A stretch of DNA of 64,000 nt from Gemmatimonadota bacterium (lineage in GTDB: Bacteria > Gemmatimonadota > Gemmatimonadetes > Longimicrobiales > Gaopeijiaceae), in assembly GCA_028873815.1 (NCBI GenBank), contig JAPPNN010000004.1, forward strand, positions 144,829 to 208,828, written 5' to 3'. Shown one piece after another: positions 13,069-30,149 of this stretch (position 1 is the first letter of the stretch; the number at the start of each line of letters is the position of its first letter). A model generated the notes under the pieces. It was not told where the DNA came from and did no database searches. It worked only from the letters and a program-made list of their open reading frames with translations. A program made the translations under genes and the position numbers.

Positions 13069-14820
13069 TCACCTGCCCACCTTCACCGCCAGGATGTCCA
13101 CGTTGTGATACTCCCGGTGCTTCACGGACGCGGCGTGATGGCGCAGAAGCGCCAGTGAGAGATCCCGCTCGCTGGTCGGGTCGGGACGGTCGCCGAGCAG
13201 CATCATCTGGTTCTCCAGGTTGCCGGCGCGCGTGGCGGCCGTGAATTCCAGCGTGGCACCGTCGCGCGTGTCCTGGGCGATCACCCGCAGGCGACGTCCC
13301 TCGGCGGCTGGCGCATGCTCATCCTCTTCCTGGCGCAGGAGACAGAGCAGCGCTTCCTCGGTCGCGGCGCGCAGGCGTTCCGTCGCCTGGGCACCCCACC
13401 CGTACCGCGTTGCGAAATCGACAACGAAACGGTCGAGTTCCGGGAGGCTGTCCGGGCGCAGCGCCATCTCGGTCTTGCGCCGGCGAGGCCCGGTCAATTC
13501 GAGGAAGAGCGTCAGGAGCAGGACGGTCAGGCCGCCGGCCGTGAGGCCGTTCGCGAGCATGCGACCCGTCGGCGCGGCGAGGTGGCCCGGGAAGATGGCC
13601 TGGAACTGGATGCCGACGCCGATCCAGAACGCGAGGCCCGCGACGAGGGCGTTCTGCCTGTTGGCGCCTTCCCGGAAGACGATGCGCATCCCCTGGGCGA
13701 AGGTCACGCCGAAGATGACCATGATGTACGCGCCCAGCACCGGGGGCGGTATGGAGAGGATCAGGGCTGCGATCTTGGGCACGAAGGCGAGCGCGACGAG
13801 AGCGACGCCGATATGGACGCCCACCCTCCGCGCGGCCACACCGATGCCGTCCGCGAGTGCGATGCCAGCCGTGTACGGCCACGGCGGCAATACTCCGGCG
13901 AGTCCCGATAGCACGGTCCCGACGCCGCAGGCGTTGACGGCCCCTTCGACCTTGCGGAAATCGACGGCCTTCCGCTCCCGGTAAGAGAGTCGTTGCATGC
14001 GCACCGTGTCGCCGACCTGCCGAACCGTGATCACGAACGTCACGAAGAGGAAGCCGGGCAGCAGGATCCAGAAACCGGGACCGAAGCTCAGGTCCAACCC
14101 GGGTGAAGCCGCCGAAGGCACGCCGATCCAGGACGCATGGGCGACGCGTTCGAAGTCGAGGATCCCGAAGAATGCCGCAGTCAGGCATCCCGCGCCCATC
14201 CCGAGCACCGGGGTCCAGGCGCGCACGATCCTGGGCGCGCGAAGCATCAGGCCCACGACGACGACGATCGTCACGGCGGCGACCGTGGGGGCCGCGGTTG
14301 TGGGCGCCCCCTCCGACACCCTCGTGAGCATGGCGAACCCCATGGGCATCACCGTCACCGAGACGAGGGCGAGAAGCGTGCCGGACACAAGTGGCGTGAT
14401 CAGGCGCCTGAGGTGCGACAGGCTGGCCGCCAGGACGAACTGACAGAGCGCCGACGCCACGACCAGCGCTCCGAGCAGGGCAGGACCGCCCGTGATCAGC
14501 GCGAGCACGGCCACCCCGATGGCGGCCCCCGAAGCACCCATGACAGTGAGACTTCCGCCACCGATCGCGCCGAACCGGATCGCCTGCACGACCGTCACCA
14601 AGCCGCCGATCACCATGCTGGCGAAGATCGCCCAGGACAGGTACGCGTCGCCCTGGTTTGCGACGCGCGCGACGATCGTGTTGACCACGACCACCGGCAC
14701 ACACACCAGAACCGCCGTCTGCGACCCGATGATGAACGACGCCAGAGGGGGAGGCCGATCGTCGGCGGCGTAACGCAGTCTGCTTCGGGATTGTCCCGCT
14801 TCAGGTGTCATACCGCCCAT
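13069..14820 (-). CDS. NCS2-type xanthine/uracil permease fused to a C-terminal ATPase-like (HATPase_c) domain
   Basis: I prefer the ATG at 14820, which has an AAGG site 5 bases upstream, giving about 583 aa. The first roughly 420 residues form a polytopic membrane protein with the NCS2 (nucleobase:cation symporter-2) layout, e.g. 'LASFIIGSQTAVLVCVPVVV', 'GGGSLTVMGASGAAIGVAVL' and 'GPGFWILLPGFLFVTFVITV'. After the last helix the protein continues with a soluble domain of about 155 aa ('RPDSLPELDRFVVDFATRYG', 'TERLRAATEEALLCLL', 'GATLEFTAA') that resembles the RsbW/serine-kinase anti-sigma type HATPase_c fold in its first helix and N-box region, though the ATP-lid glycine motifs are not clear. 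The substrate is probably a purine or pyrimidine base; the soluble part may regulate transport or signal. It is convergent with the receptor and divergent from the reductase. Confidence 0.82.
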   Translation of the reverse strand: MGGMTPEAGQSRSRLRYAADDRPPPLASFIIGSQTAVLVCVPVVVVNTIVARVANQGDAYLSWAIFASMVIGGLVTVVQAIRFGAIGGGSLTVMGASGAAIGVAVLALITGGPALLGALVVASALCQFVLAASLSHLRRLITPLVSGTLLALVSVTVMPMGFAMLTRVSEGAPTTAAPTVAAVTIVVVVGLMLRAPRIVRAWTPVLGMGAGCLTAAFFGILDFERVAHASWIGVPSAASPGLDLSFGPGFWILLPGFLFVTFVITVRQVGDTVRMQRLSYRERKAVDFRKVEGAVNACGVGTVLSGLAGVLPPWPYTAGIALADGIGVAARRVGVHIGVALVALAFVPKIAALILSIPPPVLGAYIMVIFGVTFAQGMRIVFREGANRQNALVAGLAFWIGVGIQFQAIFPGHLAAPTGRMLANGLTAGGLTVLLLTLFLELTGPRRRKTEMALRPDSLPELDRFVVDFATRYGWGAQATERLRAATEEALLCLLRQEEDEHAPAAEGRRLRVIAQDTRDGATLEFTAATRAGNLENQMMLLGDRPDPTSERDLSLALLRHHAASVKHREYHNVDILAVKVGR

Positions 14821-14877
14821 AATACCTTGAGTGCGTTCCGAGGTCACGCACACCCCGTACCCGGGCCCGTCCCTGCC

Positions 14878-16000: not shown

Positions 16001-17170
16001 CTACGACTTCGGAATCTCCTTGTCCGGGTCCACGAACGGCTTCGGTACCACGGCAGCCTGCCGCTCCCCGTCCGGCGTGGCTACCCGCAGCCGCGTCCCC
16101 AACTCCGCCAACGCCGTTGGCACCATCGCGTAGCCGATATTCCGCTTCAGCCGCGGCGACCACACCGCTGAGGTCACGCGGCCGATCGCATCGCCATTGC
16201 CGCCCGCGCCCCCCACCCCGTCCGCCCACACCGGCCACCGCGTCATGTTCAGGTCCAGCGGCGCGCCCGCGATCTCGACGCCCGCCAGCCGCCGCCGCGG
16301 CCCTTCCGCCGCGATCCGCGCCAGCGCCCCCCGGCCGATAAAGTCGCCCTCCTGGCCGCGGTCCACCTGCCACCCCATCCCGACCTCGTACGGGTTCGTG
16401 TCCAGCGTCATGTCGATCCCGTAATTCAGGATCCCCGCCTCGATCCGCCGGATGTCCGACGGCCCCGTGGGTGCAATGCCCAGGTCGGCGCCCGCGTCTA
16501 TGACCCGGTCCCACAGTTCGACCCCCCGGCTCCCCTCCCGCAGGTAGATCTCGTAACCGACCTCACCGCTCCATCCGGTCCGGGTCACCACCACCGGGAT
16601 GCCGTCCAGGTCGGTCTCCGCGAACCAGTAGTAGCGCAGCCCCGCGACCCCGTCCCCGAACAGCCTTCGCACCACCTCCTTCGACTTTGGCCCCTGCACC
16701 TGCATCGGCGACACGTCGGGCTCGCGCAGCCGCACATCCAACCCCGAATTCAGCGCCACCCCCTTTGCCCACAGCAGCACGTCGCTGTCCGCCAGCGCCA
16801 GCCAGAAGTGGTTCTCCCCCAGCCGCAGCAGCACGGGATCGTTCACGATGCCCCCGTCCTCGGCCGTAATCAGCACGTACTTGCCCTGCCCGACGGCGCA
16901 CTTCGACAGGTCCCGCGGCGTCAGCATGTTCGTGAACGCGAACGCGTCCGGCCCGGTGATCTCGACCTGCCGCTCGACGCTCACGTCCCACACCGTCACC
17001 CCGGTCCGCAGCCGCTCGTACTCGGCGTGCAGGTCGTCGTACCGGGTAGGCAGAAACATGTGGTTGTAGACCGTATAGGCACGGCAGCCGGCGCGCAGGG
17101 TGGCGTCGAAATACGGTGAACGGCGGAGCCGCGCCCCGCGCTGGATGAGTGCCATGTCGAAGGTGGTCAT
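16001..17170 (-). CDS. GcvT/DmdA-like folate-dependent methyltransferase (possible DMSP demethylase relative)
   Basis: The start at 17170 has a GGAG site 9 bases upstream; the longer track ORF overlaps the gap and the upstream gene. The 389-aa protein has the full aminomethyltransferase (GCV_T plus C-terminal barrel) layout. Several segments match what I recall of dimethylsulfoniopropionate demethylase DmdA better than glycine-cleavage T protein: 'AYTVYNHMFLPTRYDD', 'VWDVSVERQVEITGPDAF', 'GGIVNDPVLLRL' (VNDPV instead of the DD of GcvT), 'LALADSDVLLWAKG' and 'EPDVSPMQVQGPKSKE'. Such enzymes move a methyl or methylene group from a sulfonium or amine to tetrahydrofolate in the cytoplasm. It is the last gene of a four-gene operon with two FAD oxidoreductases and a second GcvT-like protein. 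No gcvH or gcvP is nearby. Whether DMSP is the substrate is unproven. Confidence 0.85.
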   Translation of the reverse strand: MTTFDMALIQRGARLRRSPYFDATLRAGCRAYTVYNHMFLPTRYDDLHAEYERLRTGVTVWDVSVERQVEITGPDAFAFTNMLTPRDLSKCAVGQGKYVLITAEDGGIVNDPVLLRLGENHFWLALADSDVLLWAKGVALNSGLDVRLREPDVSPMQVQGPKSKEVVRRLFGDGVAGLRYYWFAETDLDGIPVVVTRTGWSGEVGYEIYLREGSRGVELWDRVIDAGADLGIAPTGPSDIRRIEAGILNYGIDMTLDTNPYEVGMGWQVDRGQEGDFIGRGALARIAAEGPRRRLAGVEIAGAPLDLNMTRWPVWADGVGGAGGNGDAIGRVTSAVWSPRLKRNIGYAMVPTALAELGTRLRVATPDGERQAAVVPKPFVDPDKEIPKS

Positions 17171-17220: not shown

Positions 17221-18825
17221 TCACGAGCGTCCGCTCAATCGCGCCACCTGCTTCCGTTCGCGCAAGATTGCGCCTGCGGCAAGGCGGCCCGGTCCTCCCG
17301 TCACGCCGCCCCCCGGGTGGCACCCCGAGCCGCACAGGAACAATCCCTCGACCGGCGTCGCGTATCGCGCCCAACCCGCGATCGGGCGCATGAAGAGCAT
17401 CTGGTCGAGGCCCATCTGCCCGTGGTATTCGTCGCCATTTGTGAGACACGGTTCGGTTTCGAGGTCGAGCGGCGTGATCAGGCGGTGGTCGACGATGCGG
17501 TCGCGCATGCCGGGCAGGAAGTCGTCGAGGACGGTGAGGACGTTGGCGAGCAGGGCATCGTGGGTCGAATCGTCCTGCCAGCTGCCCGCGCGCAGGTGGT
17601 AGGGCGCGTACCGCACCTGGATCGAGGCCAGGTGGCGGCCGGCGGGCGCGAGCGCGGGGTCGTGCAGTGTGGGCATCACCATGTCGAGGTGCGGGCGGGC
17701 CGAGGCGCGGCCGTACTTCGCGTCATCGGCGGCGCGTTCGAGGTAGTCCAGGGTCGGAGCCACCAGAGTGTGGCCGGCGAGGCGTTCGGCCGCGTCCGGG
17801 AGTGGCGGGAGCCCGTCGAGCAGCAGGTGCAGGACCGCCGTGGTGCCGCGCATCTGGATGTTGGCGACCTTGCGGTTGAACTCGGGGCCGAGCCGCGGCG
17901 CGCCCACCAGAGCGAAGAAGGTGCGGCGGGGATCGGCGCCCGAGATCACGCAGCGGGCGGCGATCTCTTCCCCGCCTGCCAGGGCTACCCCGGTCGCGGC
18001 CCCGTCCTCCATCAGAATGCGCTCGACCTCCGTCCCGGTGCGCACCTCGGCGCCGTGCGCGCGCGCCGCCGCGGCCAGCGCAGCCGAGAGCGCCCCGATC
18101 CCGCCCTTCACGAACGCCGACGAGCGGAAGCCGTGGGGATCGCATCCGGTGGCGTGGTACAGCATCCGCAACGCGCCGCCCATGGCGCTGGGGCCTTGAC
18201 GGGAGCCCGCCAGCGCGGTACTGGCGAGCATCCCCTTGAGGGCGTCGCTCTCGAACCAGTCGTCGAGGAGGTCGCGGGCCGGGAGCGGCGCCACGCGCAG
18301 CAGTTCCACGACCGTACGCTTGCCGAGCCTGCCCGCCCGGATGAGGGGGCGTAGGAGGCGGAGACGCTCCCGCGCGGTCATGTCGTGCGGGGCGGGGGCC
18401 GGGTGATCGAGGGCGACGCGCAGCACCCGCGCCATGGTGTGCAGGTGGTCGGCCCAGTCGGGGAAGCGGGCCGCGTCCGCGCGGCTGTGACGGGCGATGT
18501 CGTCACGGGTGCGCGCGGGGTCGCGCCACAGGGTGAGGGCCTCGCCGCCGCCGGTCAGCGAGGTCGCCAGCGCGGGGGGGTGAATCCACTCGAGACCGTG
18601 GGCGTCGAGGCCGAGGTCGGCGGCGAAGCCCGCGGGGAAGAGGCCCGCGTCCTGGGCGGCCACGTTGACGGCGCAGCCGGGGAAGATCTCCGCCGTCGAG
18701 GCTGCGCCCCCCAGGACCGCCCGCTGTTCCAGCACGAGGACCTTCCACCTCTCGCAGGCGAGGCGGGCGGCCGTCACCAATGCGTTGTGACCGCCTCCCA
18801 CGACGACCGCGTCGTACTGCTTCAC
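17221..18825 (-). CDS. PYROXD2/CrtI-like FAD-dependent oxidoreductase (second copy)
   Basis: The GTG at 18825 overlaps the stop of the upstream paralogue (GTGA) and follows a purine-rich GGAGGGGGAGG site. 534 aa. The N-terminus has the FAD-binding motif 'DAVVVGGGHNALVTAARLAC' and the C-terminus has the second FAD motif 'GLFLCGSGCHPGGGVTGGPG'. The overall layout is that of the phytoene-desaturase/PYROXD2 group of flavin amine-oxidase-like proteins. It is about 50% alike by eye to its upstream neighbour in the shared motifs ('YAPYHLRAGSWQDD' against 'YAPYELREGTWDEK'). The reaction may be oxidation of a C-N or C-C bond of a small metabolite that the adjacent folate enzymes then demethylate. Carotenoid synthesis is unlikely because no phytoene synthase or prenyltransferase gene is present. 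Confidence 0.85.
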   Translation of the reverse strand: MKQYDAVVVGGGHNALVTAARLACERWKVLVLEQRAVLGGAASTAEIFPGCAVNVAAQDAGLFPAGFAADLGLDAHGLEWIHPPALATSLTGGGEALTLWRDPARTRDDIARHSRADAARFPDWADHLHTMARVLRVALDHPAPAPHDMTARERLRLLRPLIRAGRLGKRTVVELLRVAPLPARDLLDDWFESDALKGMLASTALAGSRQGPSAMGGALRMLYHATGCDPHGFRSSAFVKGGIGALSAALAAAARAHGAEVRTGTEVERILMEDGAATGVALAGGEEIAARCVISGADPRRTFFALVGAPRLGPEFNRKVANIQMRGTTAVLHLLLDGLPPLPDAAERLAGHTLVAPTLDYLERAADDAKYGRASARPHLDMVMPTLHDPALAPAGRHLASIQVRYAPYHLRAGSWQDDSTHDALLANVLTVLDDFLPGMRDRIVDHRLITPLDLETEPCLTNGDEYHGQMGLDQMLFMRPIAGWARYATPVEGLFLCGSGCHPGGGVTGGPGRLAAGAILRERKQVARLSGRS

Positions 18826-20417
18826 CTCCCCCTCCTCCTCCCCAGGTCCGCCAGCACCCTGCCTGCCGCCAGCTTGCCCGGCGCGCCCATGATGCCCCCG
18901 CCCGGATGTGTGCCGGAACCGCACTGGTAGTAGCCGCGCACGGGCGTCCGATAGCCCGCGTACCCGGCGGCCGGCCGGAGAAAGAAGAGCTGCGACGGCG
19001 TCAGTTCGCCCTGGAAGATGTTGCCCTGGGTGAGGCCTGTGGTGCGCTCGATGTCGAGCGGCGTGACGACCTGACGGTGCACGATGATGTCCCTGATGTT
19101 GGGGATGTAGCGGGCCAGGGTGTCGACCACCGTGTCGCCGAAAGACTCGCGCTTCTCGTCCCAGGTGCCCTCGCGCAGTTCGTAGGGGGCGTACTGCACG
19201 AAGCACGACATGACGTGCTTGCCGGGCGGCGCCATGCCGGGGTCGATCGCCGAGGGGATGACGATGTCGATGTAGGGTTCGCGCGAGAAGTCGCCGTACT
19301 TTGCGTCGTCGTAGGCGCGTTCGAGGTAGTCGATGGACGGACTGATCGAGACGGCGCCTCGCAGGTGGGGTCCGTGGCCGGGCATGCAGGTGAAGTCGGG
19401 GGCGGCGTCGAGCGCCAGGTTGATCTTGCCGGAGGAGCCGCGGAAGCGGTAGGCGCGCACGGCGCTGACGAGGTCGGCGGGGAGGTCGTTTTCGTCGACC
19501 AGGTCGAGGAAGGTGCGGTGCGGGTCGAGGCTTGAGGAGACGACCCTGGCGTGCAGTTCATCGCCGTTGGCGAGCGCCACGCCATTGACACGCCCATTCT
19601 TTACCAACGCCCGTGCCACCGGAGCGTCCGTCCGGATCTCGGCTCCCGCCTCGCGCGCGGCGGATGCGATCGCGTTTGCCACGGCCCCGGTTCCACCCTT
19701 GGCGAAGCCCCACGCCCGGAAGTGACCGTCGATCTCGCCCATGTAGTGGTGCAGCAGGACGTAGGCGGTGCCTGGCGAGCGCGGGCCCAGGAAGGTGCCG
19801 ATGATCCCGCTCGCCGACAGGGTGGCCTTGAGCACGTCGGTCTCGAACCACTCGTCGACGAAGTCGGCGGCGCTCATCGTCATGAGCTTGACGAGCAGAT
19901 GAAGCTGCTCGGGTTCGAGGTCGAGGAAGTGGCGGGCGAGGCCGAGCAGGCCGCGGATGTCGTCCGGACCCAGCCGACCGGGATCGGGAGGAGCGATGCC
20001 GAGCAGGTGCTTCACGGCGCGCGCCATGTAGAAGAGCGACCGCCCATACTCGTCGTAGGCCTCTGCGTCGCGGATCGAGAAGCGCGCGATCTCGCGCCAC
20101 GTGCGGTGGTGGTCGGCGTCGCGGTATAGGCGGTCGCCGTCCGGCAGCGGCGTGAGGGTGCTCTCGAGCGGCAGGATGGCGAGCCCGTGGCGGGGGAGGT
20201 CCAGTTCGCGGATGATGTCGGGGCGCATCAGGCTGACCACGTACGAGAACACGCTGTACCTGAAGCCCGGGAAGATCTCCTCGGTGATGGTGGCGCCGCC
20301 CACGAGCGGCCGTGCTTCGAGGACGCACACGTCGAGGCCGGCGCGCGCCAGGTAGGCGGCGTGGACGAGGCCGTTGTGGCCGCCGCCGATGACGATTGCG
20401 TCGTATTTGCGGGTCAT
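18822..20417 (-). CDS. PYROXD2/CrtI-like FAD-dependent oxidoreductase (first copy)
   Basis: The start is the ATG at 20417, since 'MTRKYDAIVIGGGHNGLVHA' opens directly with the Rossmann FAD-binding motif; the longer track ORF is a shadow of the GcvT-like gene. 531 aa, close to the usual length. C-terminal FAD motif is 'GYYQCGSGTHPGGGIMGAPG'. Family members include mitochondrial PYROXD2 and bacterial phytoene-dehydrogenase-related proteins of mostly unknown reaction. It follows the second GcvT-like gene by 29 bp and its stop overlaps the start of the next paralogue by 4 bp, so the two are probably translated together and may form a heteromeric complex. Confidence 0.87.
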   Translation of the reverse strand: MTRKYDAIVIGGGHNGLVHAAYLARAGLDVCVLEARPLVGGATITEEIFPGFRYSVFSYVVSLMRPDIIRELDLPRHGLAILPLESTLTPLPDGDRLYRDADHHRTWREIARFSIRDAEAYDEYGRSLFYMARAVKHLLGIAPPDPGRLGPDDIRGLLGLARHFLDLEPEQLHLLVKLMTMSAADFVDEWFETDVLKATLSASGIIGTFLGPRSPGTAYVLLHHYMGEIDGHFRAWGFAKGGTGAVANAIASAAREAGAEIRTDAPVARALVKNGRVNGVALANGDELHARVVSSSLDPHRTFLDLVDENDLPADLVSAVRAYRFRGSSGKINLALDAAPDFTCMPGHGPHLRGAVSISPSIDYLERAYDDAKYGDFSREPYIDIVIPSAIDPGMAPPGKHVMSCFVQYAPYELREGTWDEKRESFGDTVVDTLARYIPNIRDIIVHRQVVTPLDIERTTGLTQGNIFQGELTPSQLFFLRPAAGYAGYRTPVRGYYQCGSGTHPGGGIMGAPGKLAAGRVLADLGRRRGR

Positions 20418-20446: not shown

Positions 20447-21655
20447 CTAACCCCGCTTGCGCGCCGGGTCGAAGAATGGCGTCTTCACTATCGTGGCGGG
20501 CACCCGGTGGCGCGCGAACTCGACAGTGAGTTCGACCTCGATGCGGGTACCGGGTTTGCCGAAGTCGCGGCGGATGGTGGCGAGCGCGATGTACTTCTTC
20601 AGGATTGGCGAGAAGGTGGCGCTGGTGACGTATCCGATCTGCCTGCCGGCACCCGGGCCCTTGTGCGCGTAGATCGGGACGGCTTCGCGCGAGGCCCGTC
20701 CGGCCACCAGCGGCGGCAGACCCACCGCAGCAAAGCGCTTCTCGATGCTCGGCCAGTCGGCCTCGAGACCGGCGAGCGCCCATCGCGAGGGACTGGCGGC
20801 TTCCCGCTCGAGCACCCTTTGGCCCACGAAATCGCGACCCGGCCGCGGCTGGACCGTCCACCCGAGGCCGGCCTCGTACGGCGACGACTTGCGCGACTCG
20901 ATCAACGCCGTCCAGCTCGACACGTAGTCCACCTCCTTGAGCAACAGGCCGGCTTCGATGCGGGCCACGTCCAGCGCGTCGAGGCCGGCCGGCGCGATCC
21001 CGTAGCCGCGTCCGGTTTCCATCAGTGCGTCCCAGACGGCGAGCGCGTGCTCGGGCGCGAGCCAGATCTCGTAGCCCAGGTCGCCGGTGTAGCCCGTGCG
21101 GGTGATCGTGACCGGGGCCGCGCCGATGTGGCCCTCGGTCACCGCGAAATACGGGAGCGCGGCGATGTCCGCACCGGTCACGAGCCCGACGAGGATGTCG
21201 CGCGAGGTGGGGCCCTGAAGGGCGAGCGCGGCGAGGTCGAGGGTAATGTCGCGCACGCTCGCGTCCATCCCGAGCGCGCAGTCCTGGAACCAGCGCAGGC
21301 ACGGGTCGGCGGCCGTGATGCGGAAGGTGTCGGCGCTCAGGCGTTGCACGGTGCCGTCGTCGATCAGCTTGCCGGCCTCGTCGCACCAGGGCGTGTAGAA
21401 CACCCGTCCCACCGGGCAGTCGAGTGCGCTCCGGGTCACCACGCGATCCACGAGCGCCGCTGCGTCTGGACCCGTGACCTCGTACTTGCGTAGCGGCGAG
21501 ATGTCGAAGAGCGCCGCTCCGCTGCGCACGGCGTAGTACTCGTACTCGTGGCCCGGCTCGTAGCTCAGCGCCGCGGCGTACCCGGACCAGTTGCGCCAGC
21601 GGCGGCTGCGGCAGAGGGGTGCGGTGCGCGAGTGGAAGGGGGTCTCGAGGAGCAT
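20447..21655 (-). CDS. GcvT-like aminomethyltransferase family protein
   Basis: The ATG at 21655 ('MLLETPFHSRTAPL') is preferred; the track start at 21799 adds 48 residues over the divergent regulatory region. An intermediate ATG at 21742 is possible. The 402-aa protein has the folate-binding GCV_T fold: 'ALFDISPLRKYEVTGPDAAA', 'DEAGKLIDDGTVQRL' (the acidic pair expected in GcvT), 'LALQGPTSRDILVGL', 'ITRTGYTGDLGYEIWL' and 'SPYEAGLGWTVQPRPGRDFV', then the C-terminal barrel. It is only distantly related to the downstream DmdA-like protein. It is the first gene of the four-gene operon and probably transfers a one-carbon unit from a methylated amine-like substrate to tetrahydrofolate. Not a glycine-cleavage component by context. 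Confidence 0.87.
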   Translation of the reverse strand: MLLETPFHSRTAPLCRSRRWRNWSGYAAALSYEPGHEYEYYAVRSGAALFDISPLRKYEVTGPDAAALVDRVVTRSALDCPVGRVFYTPWCDEAGKLIDDGTVQRLSADTFRITAADPCLRWFQDCALGMDASVRDITLDLAALALQGPTSRDILVGLVTGADIAALPYFAVTEGHIGAAPVTITRTGYTGDLGYEIWLAPEHALAVWDALMETGRGYGIAPAGLDALDVARIEAGLLLKEVDYVSSWTALIESRKSSPYEAGLGWTVQPRPGRDFVGQRVLEREAASPSRWALAGLEADWPSIEKRFAAVGLPPLVAGRASREAVPIYAHKGPGAGRQIGYVTSATFSPILKKYIALATIRRDFGKPGTRIEVELTVEFARHRVPATIVKTPFFDPARKRG

Positions 21656-23194: not shown

Positions 23195-24466
23195 CTACAC
23201 CAACCCCGCCAACACCCCGAGCAGCCGGTCCACGTCGCTGCGGTTGTTGAACATCCCGACGGCTGCCCGCAGTAAGTTCCCGTCTTCCTGGAAGGTGATC
23301 GCGACGCCGGCTTCGGCGAGTGCCGGGCCCAGCCGCTCCGGGTCCAGCCCGTGGTAGAAGCTGACGATGGCGGACGGATTGTCGGGTGGCGTGAACATCC
23401 GCATTCCCAGCGCTTCGGCACCCGCGCGCAACTCGCCCGCCAACGCGTGGGTGTGCGACGCGATACGGTCTATTCCCACATCCTCCAGAAAGCCGAGCGC
23501 GGCGTCCATCGCGGCCACCGGTCCGTACGCCGGGTTGGCGTACTCAAGCTTCTCCGCACTCGTCTTGAGTCGAAAGCGGTGTCCAGGGAGCGTCTCGGCG
23601 ACCTGCCGGTGCCCGAACCGGTCGGCGGCCATCCACTCCAGGTGCTCGGCGCGAACATAGAACGGCGCACACCCGAAGTCTCCGTGCAGCCACTTGTATC
23701 CGTTCCCGCAGGCGAAGTCGACCTTTTCCTCGTGCAGGTTCGTGGGGAATGTTCCCCAGGCCTGGATCGCATCGGCGTACAGGTAGGCACCGTGGGCGTG
23801 CGCGAGGTCGGCCAGCTCAGGCAGGTCGTAGCGGAAGCCGTTGCGGTTCGATACCCAGGCCACGCTGATCAGGCGCGTCCGCGGGTCCGTGTGCGCGGCG
23901 AAGTCGTCCAACGTGACGACCCCGCCCCGCGAAGGGATGATCCTGAGCTCGATCCCGGCCTTCCGCTCCAGCTCTCGGTAGAGAACGAACGTCGTGACGA
24001 AGTGCAGTTCATCGACCACGACATTGTCCCCCGCGCGCCAGTCCATCGCACTGACGATGATGTTCTCCGCGCCGCTCGTGGCGTACAGGAACGCCAGTTC
24101 GTCCTCGTCGGCCCCGAAGAGCCGGCTGAAGCGTGTCCGAGCGCTTGCGATGGCCTCGCGTCCCACGGACGTGTTCCGCCGGTGCATCTTCTCGTCGGCG
24201 TATGCGTGGAGGGCGTCGCGTACCGGGACCGGTAGCGGGCCCACCGAGGCGGTGTTGAGGTACGCGAGCTTTTCGGTGACGGGGAAGCTGGCCCGCACGC
24301 CAAGCGGGTCGTCGTTCGAGCGGCCGGACTCACGCGCCGGACCCTCGGACACCGATGACGGGTCTCCGGCTGTCGACTCGGCCGTGAGGCTGCGGGTGAC
24401 AGGGAGTGCGGCGAGCCCGGCCGCGGCCGATCTCCCCAGAAAGCGCCGGCGGTTCAATGACTTCAT
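23195..24466 (-). CDS. Exported class V aminotransferase (isopenicillin-N-epimerase-like), PLP-dependent
   Basis: The ATG at 24466 follows a GAGGAA site and opens a twin-arginine signal ('[19 protein letters not shown]'), so this PLP enzyme should fold in the cytoplasm and be sent to the periplasm. 423 aa. The cofactor regions are '[12 protein letters not shown]', '[18 protein letters not shown]' and the Schiff-base lysine in '[15 protein letters not shown]'. The class includes cysteine desulfurases, isopenicillin-N epimerases and lyases; the substrate is unknown. It is divergent from cysD with a 113-bp gap, which weakly suggests a sulfur-amino-acid theme, and convergent with the DUF4143 gene. 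Confidence 0.87.
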
Positions 24467-24579
24467 GGATTCCTCGCTGTGTCGGTGCGGGCGCACGATC
24501 ATGTCGAAGGCTGATCCTAGTGTCGCGGTACGGAGGGGGCCAGACCATCCTTGCCGCCGTGGACGCTATCTTCGGAGTC

Positions 24580-25476
24580 ATGAGTTCCTGCCTTTCAGCC
24601 CTCGAATCCGAAGCCATCGAGATCATCCGTGAAGGCGTCGCGACCGCTGCCCGCCCGGTGATGCTCTACTCAATCGGCAAGGACTCGTCGGTCCTCCTGC
24701 ACCTGGCGCGCAAGGCCTTTTGGCCCGCTCAGCCGCCCATGCCGCTGCTGCACGTCGACACAACGTGGAAGTTCCGCGAGATGATCGCCCTTCGTGACCG
24801 GGTAGCGGCCGAGGCCGGTGTGCAACTCATCGTCCACACCAACCAGGAGGGCATCGACGCCGGCATCACTCCCTTCACCCATGGATCCGACCACTACACC
24901 GACATCATGAAGACGGTGGCGTTGCGCCAGGCCCTCGACGCCGGGCGCTACGACATGGTCTTCGTCGGCGCCCGCCGCGACGAGGAAAAGTCACGCGCCA
25001 AGGAACGCGTCTTCTCGCTTCGCAACGGTGCCCACCAGTGGGACCCCAAGGCCCAGCGGCCCGAACTGTGGAACCTCTACAACACCCGTCTCCACGCTGG
25101 CGAATCGCTCCGCGTCGCCCCGCTGTCCAACTGGAGCGAACCCGACATCTGGCGCTACATCGCCGCCGAGGGGATACCCATTGTGCCGCTCTACTACGCC
25201 GCCGAGCGCCCCGTGGTCGAGCGTGACGGCCAGTGGATCATGGTGGACGACGGCCGCATGCCATTGGTTCCCGGCGAGCGCCCGCAACTGCGCCGCGTAC
25301 GCTTCCGCACCCTGGGATGCTACCCGCTCACCGCCGCAATCGAGAGCAGCGCCGACACCCTCGACGCGATCGTCGCCGAAACCCTGGCCGCCGAGCATTC
25401 CGAGCGCCGGGGCCGGCTGATCGACCACGACGGTGAGGCCGCCATGGAGCGGAAGAAGCGGGAGGGCTACTTCTGA
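24580..25476 (+). CDS. cysD: Sulfate adenylyltransferase subunit 2
   Basis: The ATG at 24580 gives 298 aa, the usual CysD length; the track start is inside the divergent aminotransferase. The PP-loop for ATP is '[20 protein letters not shown]' and further family signatures are '[13 protein letters not shown]', '[20 protein letters not shown]', '[14 protein letters not shown]' and the C-terminal '[12 protein letters not shown]'. With CysN it forms adenosine-5'-phosphosulfate from ATP and sulfate, driven by GTP hydrolysis on CysN. Unusually, cysN is not adjacent: two unrelated genes and nearly 3 kb separate it from cysNC downstream on the same strand. Confidence 0.96.
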
Positions 25477-28250: not shown

Positions 28251-28325
28251 GCTTGCCTCCGAGGTCCGGTACGGTTTTGGAACTCCTGTCGGACTGAAGT
28301 AACACACGAGAGAGGGTTGCCTCTG

Positions 28326-30149
28326 ATGGATCCGCCGCTGCGTTTCGTCCTCTGCGGCAGCGTGGACGACGGAAAGAGCACGCTCATCGGACGGATCCTC
28401 CATGACTGCGGTCAGGTGTTCGCGGACCAGATGGAAGGGGTTGAAGAGGATTCGCGCCGATACGGCACTCAGGGCGACGCAACCGATCTGGCTCTCCTCC
28501 TGGACGGCCTGAAGGACGAGCGCCAGCAGGGCATCACCATCGATGTCGCGCACCGTGGCTTCGCGACAGCTCGGCGCCGCTTCATCGTCGCGGACGCACC
28601 CGGCCACGAGCAGTACACGCGCAACATGGCGACGGGTGCATCCACCGCGCGGCTCGCGGTCGTCTTGGCGGATGCACGCAAGGGGATCCTGCCCCAGACC
28701 GCCCGCCACACGCGGATTGCGGCGATGTTCGGGGTGGGCCATTTCGTGCTGGCGGTCAACAAGATGGACCTGGTCGGGTGGGATCATGACGCGTTCGAAA
28801 GCATCGTTTCGGGGTACCGCACGCTTGCCGAGGAGATCGGCATCCCCGACGTGGCGACGATTCCCGTCTGCGCCCTCACCGGCGACAACCTGACGCGTTC
28901 CTCCGGCCGCACTCCGTGGTACACCGGCCCCACGCTGCTCGAGCACCTGGAGGCCGTGGCCGTCGAGCCGCGCACCGCCGGACAGCCCTTCCGCATGCCC
29001 GTGCAGTACGTCAATCGGCCCGATGCGGGCTTTCGCGGCTACTGCGGCCGAGTGGTGTCCGGCACGGTGAAGCCCGGCGACCGGGTGCGCATCTCGCCCG
29101 CCGGAACCACCGCCACCGTTGAATCGATCATGGCATGGCAGGACACCCGGGCACGCGCCAAACGGGGCGATTCGATCACGCTCACCCTCCGGCCCGATGT
29201 CGACGTCACCCGCGGCGACGTGATCGTGGACGCAGACCGCCCCCTCGAAGTGGCGGACCAGTTCCAGGCGAAGATCCTGTGGATGGACGACGCGCCGCTG
29301 ACCGTGGGCCGTCGCTACCGGCTGAAGCTGCACACCCGCGAAGTGGAGGCCACCGTCACCCGCATCCGCCACCGGATCGACGTGTCCGATGGCAGCCAGC
29401 TCGCCGCGCCCCACCTCGGCATCAACGACCTGGGCGTCGTCAATCTCGCGACCAGCCGCCCCGTACCCTTTGCACCCTTCGACGAGAGCCGCGAACTCGG
29501 CGGCTTCATCCTGATCGACCGCGCGACCAACGCGACCGTCGGTGCCGGAACGCTGACCTTCGCGCTCATGCGCGCCGCGAACCTCAAGTGGCAGGACTTC
29601 GACGTCGATGGCGAAGTGCGCGCTGAACTCAAGCGGCAGCGCCCCCGGTGCCTGTGGCTGACCGGTCTGTCCGCGTCGGGGAAATCCACGATCGCCAACC
29701 TGCTCGAAAGGCAACTCGTCACCGAGGGCCGCCACACCTACCTCCTCGACGGCGACAACGTGCGCCACGGCCTCAACCGCGACCTGGGCTTCACCGAGGC
29801 CGACCGCGTGGAGAACATTCGCCGGGTCGCGGAGGTCGCCCGCCTGATGGTCGACGCCGGCCTGATCGTGATCGTGTCCTTCATCAGCCCCTTCCGGTCC
29901 GAACGCGACTTCGCCCGCAGCCTCTTCGAGCCGGACGACTTCATGGAGATTTTCGTGGACGCCTCGGTGGAAGCGTGCGCGGCGCGCGACCCGAAAGGCC
30001 TCTACGCCAAGGCAAAAAGGGGCGAGATCAGGAACTTCACGGGCATCGACAGCCCGTATGAGCCCCCGGAACGGCCGGATGTGCATCTGGACACGGAGGG
30101 GCTCTCGCCGGAGGAGTGCGTCGAGATCGTCATGCGGCGTCTGGCTTGA
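28326..30149 (+). CDS. cysNC: Bifunctional sulfate adenylyltransferase subunit 1 / adenylylsulfate kinase
   Basis: The ATG at 28326 follows GAGAGGG with 9-base spacing; the track TTG start is three codons upstream. 607 aa. The N-terminal CysN GTPase has the P-loop 'CGSVDDGKSTLIGR', 'ADAPGHEQYTRNMATGA' and the guanine-specificity 'NKMD', then two elongation-factor-like beta-barrels (to about residue 430). The C-terminal APS kinase has a second P-loop 'TGLSASGKSTIANLLE', 'DGDNVRHGLNRDLGFTEADR' and 'VSFISPFRSERDFAR'. It powers APS synthesis with CysD and phosphorylates APS to PAPS. No PAPS reductase or sulfotransferase gene is in the window, so the fate of PAPS is unknown. Confidence 0.96.
   Translation: MDPPLRFVLCGSVDDGKSTLIGRILHDCGQVFADQMEGVEEDSRRYGTQGDATDLALLLDGLKDERQQGITIDVAHRGFATARRRFIVADAPGHEQYTRNMATGASTARLAVVLADARKGILPQTARHTRIAAMFGVGHFVLAVNKMDLVGWDHDAFESIVSGYRTLAEEIGIPDVATIPVCALTGDNLTRSSGRTPWYTGPTLLEHLEAVAVEPRTAGQPFRMPVQYVNRPDAGFRGYCGRVVSGTVKPGDRVRISPAGTTATVESIMAWQDTRARAKRGDSITLTLRPDVDVTRGDVIVDADRPLEVADQFQAKILWMDDAPLTVGRRYRLKLHTREVEATVTRIRHRIDVSDGSQLAAPHLGINDLGVVNLATSRPVPFAPFDESRELGGFILIDRATNATVGAGTLTFALMRAANLKWQDFDVDGEVRAELKRQRPRCLWLTGLSASGKSTIANLLERQLVTEGRHTYLLDGDNVRHGLNRDLGFTEADRVENIRRVAEVARLMVDAGLIVIVSFISPFRSERDFARSLFEPDDFMEIFVDASVEACAARDPKGLYAKAKRGEIRNFTGIDSPYEPPERPDVHLDTEGLSPEECVEIVMRRLA

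Follow-up and report, generated by a model that had tools for sequence, protein, structure and literature searches.

The window, a stretch of 64,000 nucleotides, sits in contig 7 of a bacterial genome of 4.29 Mb that is 86% complete and belongs to Gemmatimonadota, the phylum already guessed in an earlier reading of the sequence alone. On the minus strand of the window, four genes form a compact array with gaps of 29 and 50 bases and one 4-base overlap, and a DmdA-like gene is the last of them. The genes of the array and the motifs of the DmdA-like protein are as follows.

20447..21655, minus strand: GcvT-like protein, with the TMAO demethylase C-terminal half as nearest match (NF053776 310 bits vs GcvT 221; PDB 9q5a, E = 1e-59)
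18822..20417, minus strand: CrtO/phytoene-desaturase-like FAD oxidoreductase 1 (best score CrtO)
17221..18825, minus strand: CrtO/phytoene-desaturase-like FAD oxidoreductase 2, GTG start (best score CrtO), with a 4-base overlap with the end of FAD oxidoreductase 1
16001..17170, minus strand: DmdA-like folate-dependent methyltransferase, 389 aa (NF009133 392.4 bits, PF01571 and PF08669, 3TFH fold)
17057..17077, minus strand: YTVYNHM motif, residues 32-38, common to the whole DmdA-like family in the 108-sequence alignment
16832..16846, minus strand: VNDPV motif, residues 109-113, with Asn110 at the GcvT-type Asp column
16562..16579, minus strand: TGWSGE, residues 198-203 (DmdA counterpart SG[WY]SKQ)
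16439..16465, minus strand: GPSDIRRIE, residues 236-244 (DmdA counterpart CPNLIERIE)

The DmdA-like gene is a complete open reading frame of 389 aa on the minus strand, which runs from the ATG at 17170 to the stop at 16001 and matches the interval 16001-17170 exactly. The sequence-only reading had thus pointed to a real gene, the strand of which it left unstated; a plus-strand reading of the same interval was ruled out, as it contains two stops. The three segments quoted in that reading were all found in the protein, namely AYTVYNHMFLPT at residues 31-42, VNDPV at 109-113 and EPDVSPMQVQGPK at 150-162. The Pfam domains of the protein are GCV_T and GCV_T_C. The top NCBIfam model was NF009133, the model of DMSP demethylase, with 392.4 bits (E = 1.8e-117), which is 18 bits short of its curated cut-off of 410 bits and below the score required of DmdA. 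The GcvT models gave 199.7 and 174.2 bits, both under their cut-offs of 300 and 235.85. The PDB sequence search placed 3TFH, the DmdA of Candidatus Pelagibacter ubique, at the top (E = 1.9e-76; best GcvT 5.9e-53), and a structure search with the AlphaFold model of the protein (mean pLDDT 91) also returned 3TFH first (TM 0.91, rmsd 1.8), followed by GcvT structures with TM of 0.85 and lower.

The residues were compared in an alignment of 108 sequences. YNHM-type and NDP motifs were present throughout the DmdA and DmdA-like proteins examined, and the column of Asn110 held Asn in every DmdA and DmdA-like row vs Asp in all four GcvT-type rows. Since the motifs quoted in the sequence-only reading are found in all DmdA-like proteins, they mark the family and not the DMSP substrate. 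DmdA and its sister group are characterized by SG[WY]SKQ and PNxxERxE, and the clade of the window protein by TG[WY][ST]xE and GPxxIRRIE. In the window protein, the DmdA signatures SG[WY]SKQGG and PNxIERIE have changed to TGWSGEVG and GPSDIRRIE. The DmdA-fixed residues K199, Q200, N235 and E238 (3TFH) correspond to Gly202, Glu203, Ser238 and Arg241 in the window protein, which speaks against the DMSP assignment. One Trp, 'W171', has been termed key for DMSP (PMC7487153); judged from its distance to the folate residues E178 and Y180, it most likely equals W197 of 3TFH, and this aromatic column is occupied in the window protein by Trp200. Trp stands in this column in many DmdA-like rows and roseobacter DmdA have Tyr. 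Trp200 was ruled out as proof of DMSP binding, because the genetically supported DmdA of Phaeobacter inhibens has Tyr there. The gene of the latter was recognised through an exact match to a published qPCR primer, and its deletion shows that it is needed for the DMSP response (PMC12366255).

Scored with NF009133, about 385 alphaproteobacterial genomes yielded two populations, 480-700 bits (DmdA) and mostly 345-411 bits, which are often present in one genome. The window protein, with 392 bits, falls in the second, non-DmdA peak and carries the TG[WY]x[GSA]E and IRRIE signature of non-DMSP DmdA-like proteins. The DmdA core including 3TFH formed a single clade both in a quick 108-row tree (support 99) and in a bootstrapped 78-row tree (100/100, branch length about 1.1 changes per site), and the window protein was outside of it. 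The verified DmdA proteins used for this placement were 3TFH and the one of P. inhibens. The phylogeny that the sequence-only reading had suggested as a check therefore largely contradicts the DMSP assignment. The clade of the window protein (99/99) comprises Gemmatimonadota, soil and groundwater MAG, Acidobacteriota, Chloroflexota and actinobacterial proteins, together with a second DmdA-like copy of the host. The sister of the DmdA core is an alphaproteobacterial group (97/81); its members (L174, L178, L184, L187, L190, L196 and others) have the SKQ and ERxE residues and score below the DMSP cut-off, and they are possible unrecognised DMSP or sulfonium demethylases.

The window protein resembles DmdA in its fold, in the YNHM and VNDP motifs and in the Asn that replaces the GcvT Asp, but it is only 36% identical to 3TFH (35-47% to the alphaproteobacterial DmdA set) and lacks SKQGG and PNLIERIE. 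Identity rises to 51-54% with the DmdA-like proteins of roseobacters and of SAR11-sized genomes, to 56-62% with actinobacterial relatives (60-62% for Rubrobacter and Nocardiopsis) and to 65-73% with close homologues held by groundwater and soil bacteria. Orthologues at 83-93% identity come mostly from Gemmatimonadota MAGs, including Candidatus Palauibacter and BD2-11-clade bins, and a few of these bins carry a Gammaproteobacteria label. The host is probably marine and sponge-associated, as judged from the isolate names, which point to a sponge or coral origin of the MAGs, and from the Gemmatimonadota literature. DmdA-like proteins also occur on haloarchaeal plasmids (Haloarcula, Halomicrococcus, Haladaptatus) and are 36-39% identical to the window protein. 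The protein is a member of the DmdA-like family and no DmdA orthologue; the earlier statement that it is DmdA-like and not GcvT thus stands for the wider family, on the evidence of NF009133, 3TFH and the fold, but not for DmdA proper.

A second alphaproteobacterial DmdA-like family shares with the window protein 51-55% identity, the SRTGWSSE and IRRIE pattern and the score range, but forms a clade of its own (100/99), and many of its members have Lrp, OsmC, enoyl-CoA hydratase and acyl-CoA synthetase genes as neighbours. One probable member of this family is SAR11_1265, an aminomethyltransferase without an assigned substrate whose gene adjoins metF (Sun et al. 2011, PMC3160333). Plasmids of Phaeobacter and Loktanella (L111, L112, L114, L115) carry a conserved operon of Lrp, DmdA-like, OsmC, enoyl-CoA hydratase and acyl-CoA synthetase genes, and a related copy (L116) has an SBP56 gene close by. 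This context resembles DMSP-type chemistry, and sulfonium compounds could be the substrates in that group.

The partners of the DmdA-like gene in the array are two flavoproteins and a folate protein. The GcvT-like partner (20447-21655) retains the GcvT-type Asp (LIDDG), and its nearest described kin are the GcvT-like domains of TMAO demethylase and of dimethylglycine dehydrogenase/oxidase, in which THF is the one-carbon acceptor. In those enzymes the domains are fused to other catalytic domains, whereas the GcvT-like protein of the array is free-standing beside the two CrtO-like flavoproteins. Both flavoproteins have an N-terminal GGGHN[GA] dinucleotide motif and are of the CrtO type, not of the DAO type as in dimethylglycine dehydrogenase; the predicted structure of flavoprotein 1 is poor (mean pLDDT 53). 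The array was intact in 18 of the loci examined, in Gemmatimonadota. In two more distant Gemmatimonadota (L042 and L045, 72-73% identity), the flavoprotein and GcvT-like genes are linked but divergent to the DmdA-like gene. Among 249 Gemmatimonadota genomes, 35 had both the DmdA-like and the GcvT-like gene, 2 the DmdA-like gene alone and 36 the GcvT-like gene alone; the GcvT-like partner was thus present in 35/37 genomes with the DmdA-like gene vs 36/212 without it (Fisher p = 1.8e-20, uncorrected for shared ancestry). No earlier description of the split flavoprotein arrangement was found in the open-licence literature. Elsewhere in the window, two genes of sulfate activation lie near the array, one for a phosphoadenosine-phosphosulfate-reductase-domain protein (CysD-like, 24406-25476) and one for a CysNC-like elongation-factor/APS-kinase fusion (28317-30149), and a xanthine/uracil permease (13069-14853) has about 175 additional C-terminal residues without a Pfam match.

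The neighbourhoods of relatives repeat the association with flavin and folate enzymes. The actinobacterial proteins (Rubrobacter, Nocardiopsis, Nesterenkonia, Actinomycetospora) belong to the same 99/99 clade, but their partners are a fused FAD-GcvT protein and MTHFR in place of the split flavoprotein pair of the window. In 15 actinobacterial loci the DmdA-like gene adjoins such an FAD-GcvT fusion of the dimethylglycine-dehydrogenase type, and several of these loci also contain MTHFR-like, FTHFS and sarcosine oxidase (soxA and soxB) genes. A Chloroflexota MAG relative has an FAD-GcvT gene and MTHFR as neighbours, and the Lichenihabitans DmdA-like gene adjoins MTHFR, purU and folD. The second DmdA-like copy of the host (42-44% identity) lies in contig 83 at about 77-87 kb (L108:7017-17261), next to an FAD-GcvT dimethylglycine-dehydrogenase-like protein and a gamma-butyrobetaine-hydroxylase (GBBH)-like dioxygenase, with a BCCT betaine/carnitine transporter within about 3 kb; contig 83 also has a sarcosine-oxidase-alpha-like gene at a distance of about 60 kb. 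This locus probably serves betaine catabolism. The recurring scheme, a DmdA-like methyltransferase together with an oxidative flavin/folate demethylase, fits a quaternary amine substrate. One universal operon for the DmdA-like gene was ruled out, because many soil and groundwater relatives have unrelated neighbours (radical SAM, BipA, MFS, ABC).

The reading to which we give somewhat better than even odds (about 0.55) is that the DmdA-like protein is a folate-dependent, redox-neutral demethylase of a quaternary N-methyl (betaine-type) compound, paired with a split oxidative demethylase. The DmdA-like protein would transfer one methyl group from the betaine-type compound to N5 of THF, yielding 5-methyl-THF. 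The two CrtO-like flavoproteins would then oxidise an N-methyl group of the resulting tertiary amine, and the GcvT-like protein may catch the one-carbon unit as 5,10-methylene-THF, like the fused FAD-GcvT enzymes such as dimethylglycine dehydrogenase. In this scheme the first methyl group would be lost by transfer to THF and the subsequent ones by oxidation. The MTHFR neighbours of the relatives fit a 5-methyl-THF product, and the same point has been made for SAR11_1265 beside metF (Sun et al. 2011, PMC3160333). We infer the substrate, the direction in which the methyl group moves and the cooperation of the four genes; no measured activity for any member of the 99/99 clade was found in the literature. 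Of the readings considered, that of a betaine substrate has the best support, without being proven. Several points temper it: the Phaeobacter group, at 51-54% identity, has an acyl-CoA synthetase, enoyl-CoA hydratase and OsmC context; the nearest matches of the CrtO-like pair are carotenoid enzymes, and its role in amine demethylation is a presumed one; the co-occurrence is uncorrected for shared ancestry; and the host genome is 86% complete.

With distinctly less assurance, the protein might represent a fourth type of first step in (glycine) betaine breakdown, which would depend on folate, set against the homocysteine, corrinoid and Rieske routes, and would in Gemmatimonadota be coupled to a novel split oxidative demethylase made of the CrtO-like pair and the stand-alone GcvT-like protein. 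Neither the host nor five relatives yielded a Rieske GbcA-type protein. A stand-alone homocysteine S-methyltransferase was present in 5/5 close relatives, so these may have a further route for betaine.

First among the alternatives, and itself unlikely, is the demethylation of another sulfonium or thioether compound, e.g. methylmercaptopropionate, S-methylmethionine or dimethylsulfonioacetate. It is favoured by the acyl-CoA synthetase, enoyl-CoA hydratase and OsmC genes beside the related alphaproteobacterial group and by the speculation of Sun et al. 2011 (PMC3160333) that SAR11_1265 acts in the DMSP pathway to take off the second methyl group. However, no such genes lie near the window gene or its relatives, and the flavin and GcvT partners indicate amine oxidation. 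The proposal of 'related sulfonium demethylation' in the sequence-only reading is retained as demethylation of an onium compound, in which the onium centre is most likely nitrogen.

The next alternative, also of low probability, is that the DmdA-like gene has no functional tie to the flavoprotein pair, which would make or modify carotenoids in an incidental neighbourhood. CrtO gives the best score for both flavoproteins, and the DmdA-like gene is apart from them in many relatives. This is opposed by the strong co-occurrence, by the GcvT-like folate protein in the same array and by the linkage that recurs in the differently arranged clusters of distant Gemmatimonadota (L042, L045).

Still less probable is a true DMSP demethylase, vertically kept or horizontally gained in marine Gemmatimonadota, which would bear out the claim that DMSP demethylation extends to a new phylum. 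DmdA is the nearest solved structure, the NF009133 score is close to the cut-off, Trp200 offers an aromatic residue at the W197 column, and DMSP is plausible where the host MAGs apparently originate, in marine animals. However, that Trp is not diagnostic given the Tyr of the working Phaeobacter DmdA, the protein is placed outside of the DmdA clade, residues fixed in DmdA have changed (including E238 to Arg), its 65-73% homologues live in groundwater and soil bacteria, and its relatives are flanked by N-methyl-amine catabolism genes. Moreover, neither an SBP56 methanethiol oxidase nor a full-length DmdC orthologue was found in the host (86% complete) and five related genomes, two of them single-contig, where partial DmdC matches reached only about 32%; both alphaproteobacterial control genomes had SBP56 and full-length DmdC at 40-50% identity. 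No dmdB, dmdC or dmdD genes were found beside the window gene. The ecogenomics papers on Gemmatimonadota that were consulted contained no mention of DMSP or betaine genes. An ordinary aminomethyltransferase of the glycine cleavage system, with which the protein has both GCV domains in common, is very improbable, as a strong GcvT (326.8 bits) is encoded elsewhere in the genome, the conserved Asp of the GcvT DD motif is Asn110, and the DmdA model scores 392 bits vs 200 bits for GcvT.

Summarizing, earlier work had already described aminomethyltransferases close to DmdA that lack an assigned substrate (PMC3160333; non-DmdA clade in PMC7487153), and the family is therefore not new. DmdA annotations are widely used for reading DMSP cycling out of metagenomes, and a large DmdA-like family of marine, soil and groundwater bacteria and actinobacteria scores near the DMSP model, yet is distinct by phylogeny and context. 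If this family were tallied as DmdA, DMSP estimates would be inflated. The betaine reading, if true, would add a folate-dependent route, so far missing, by which abundant nitrogen osmolytes are demethylated.
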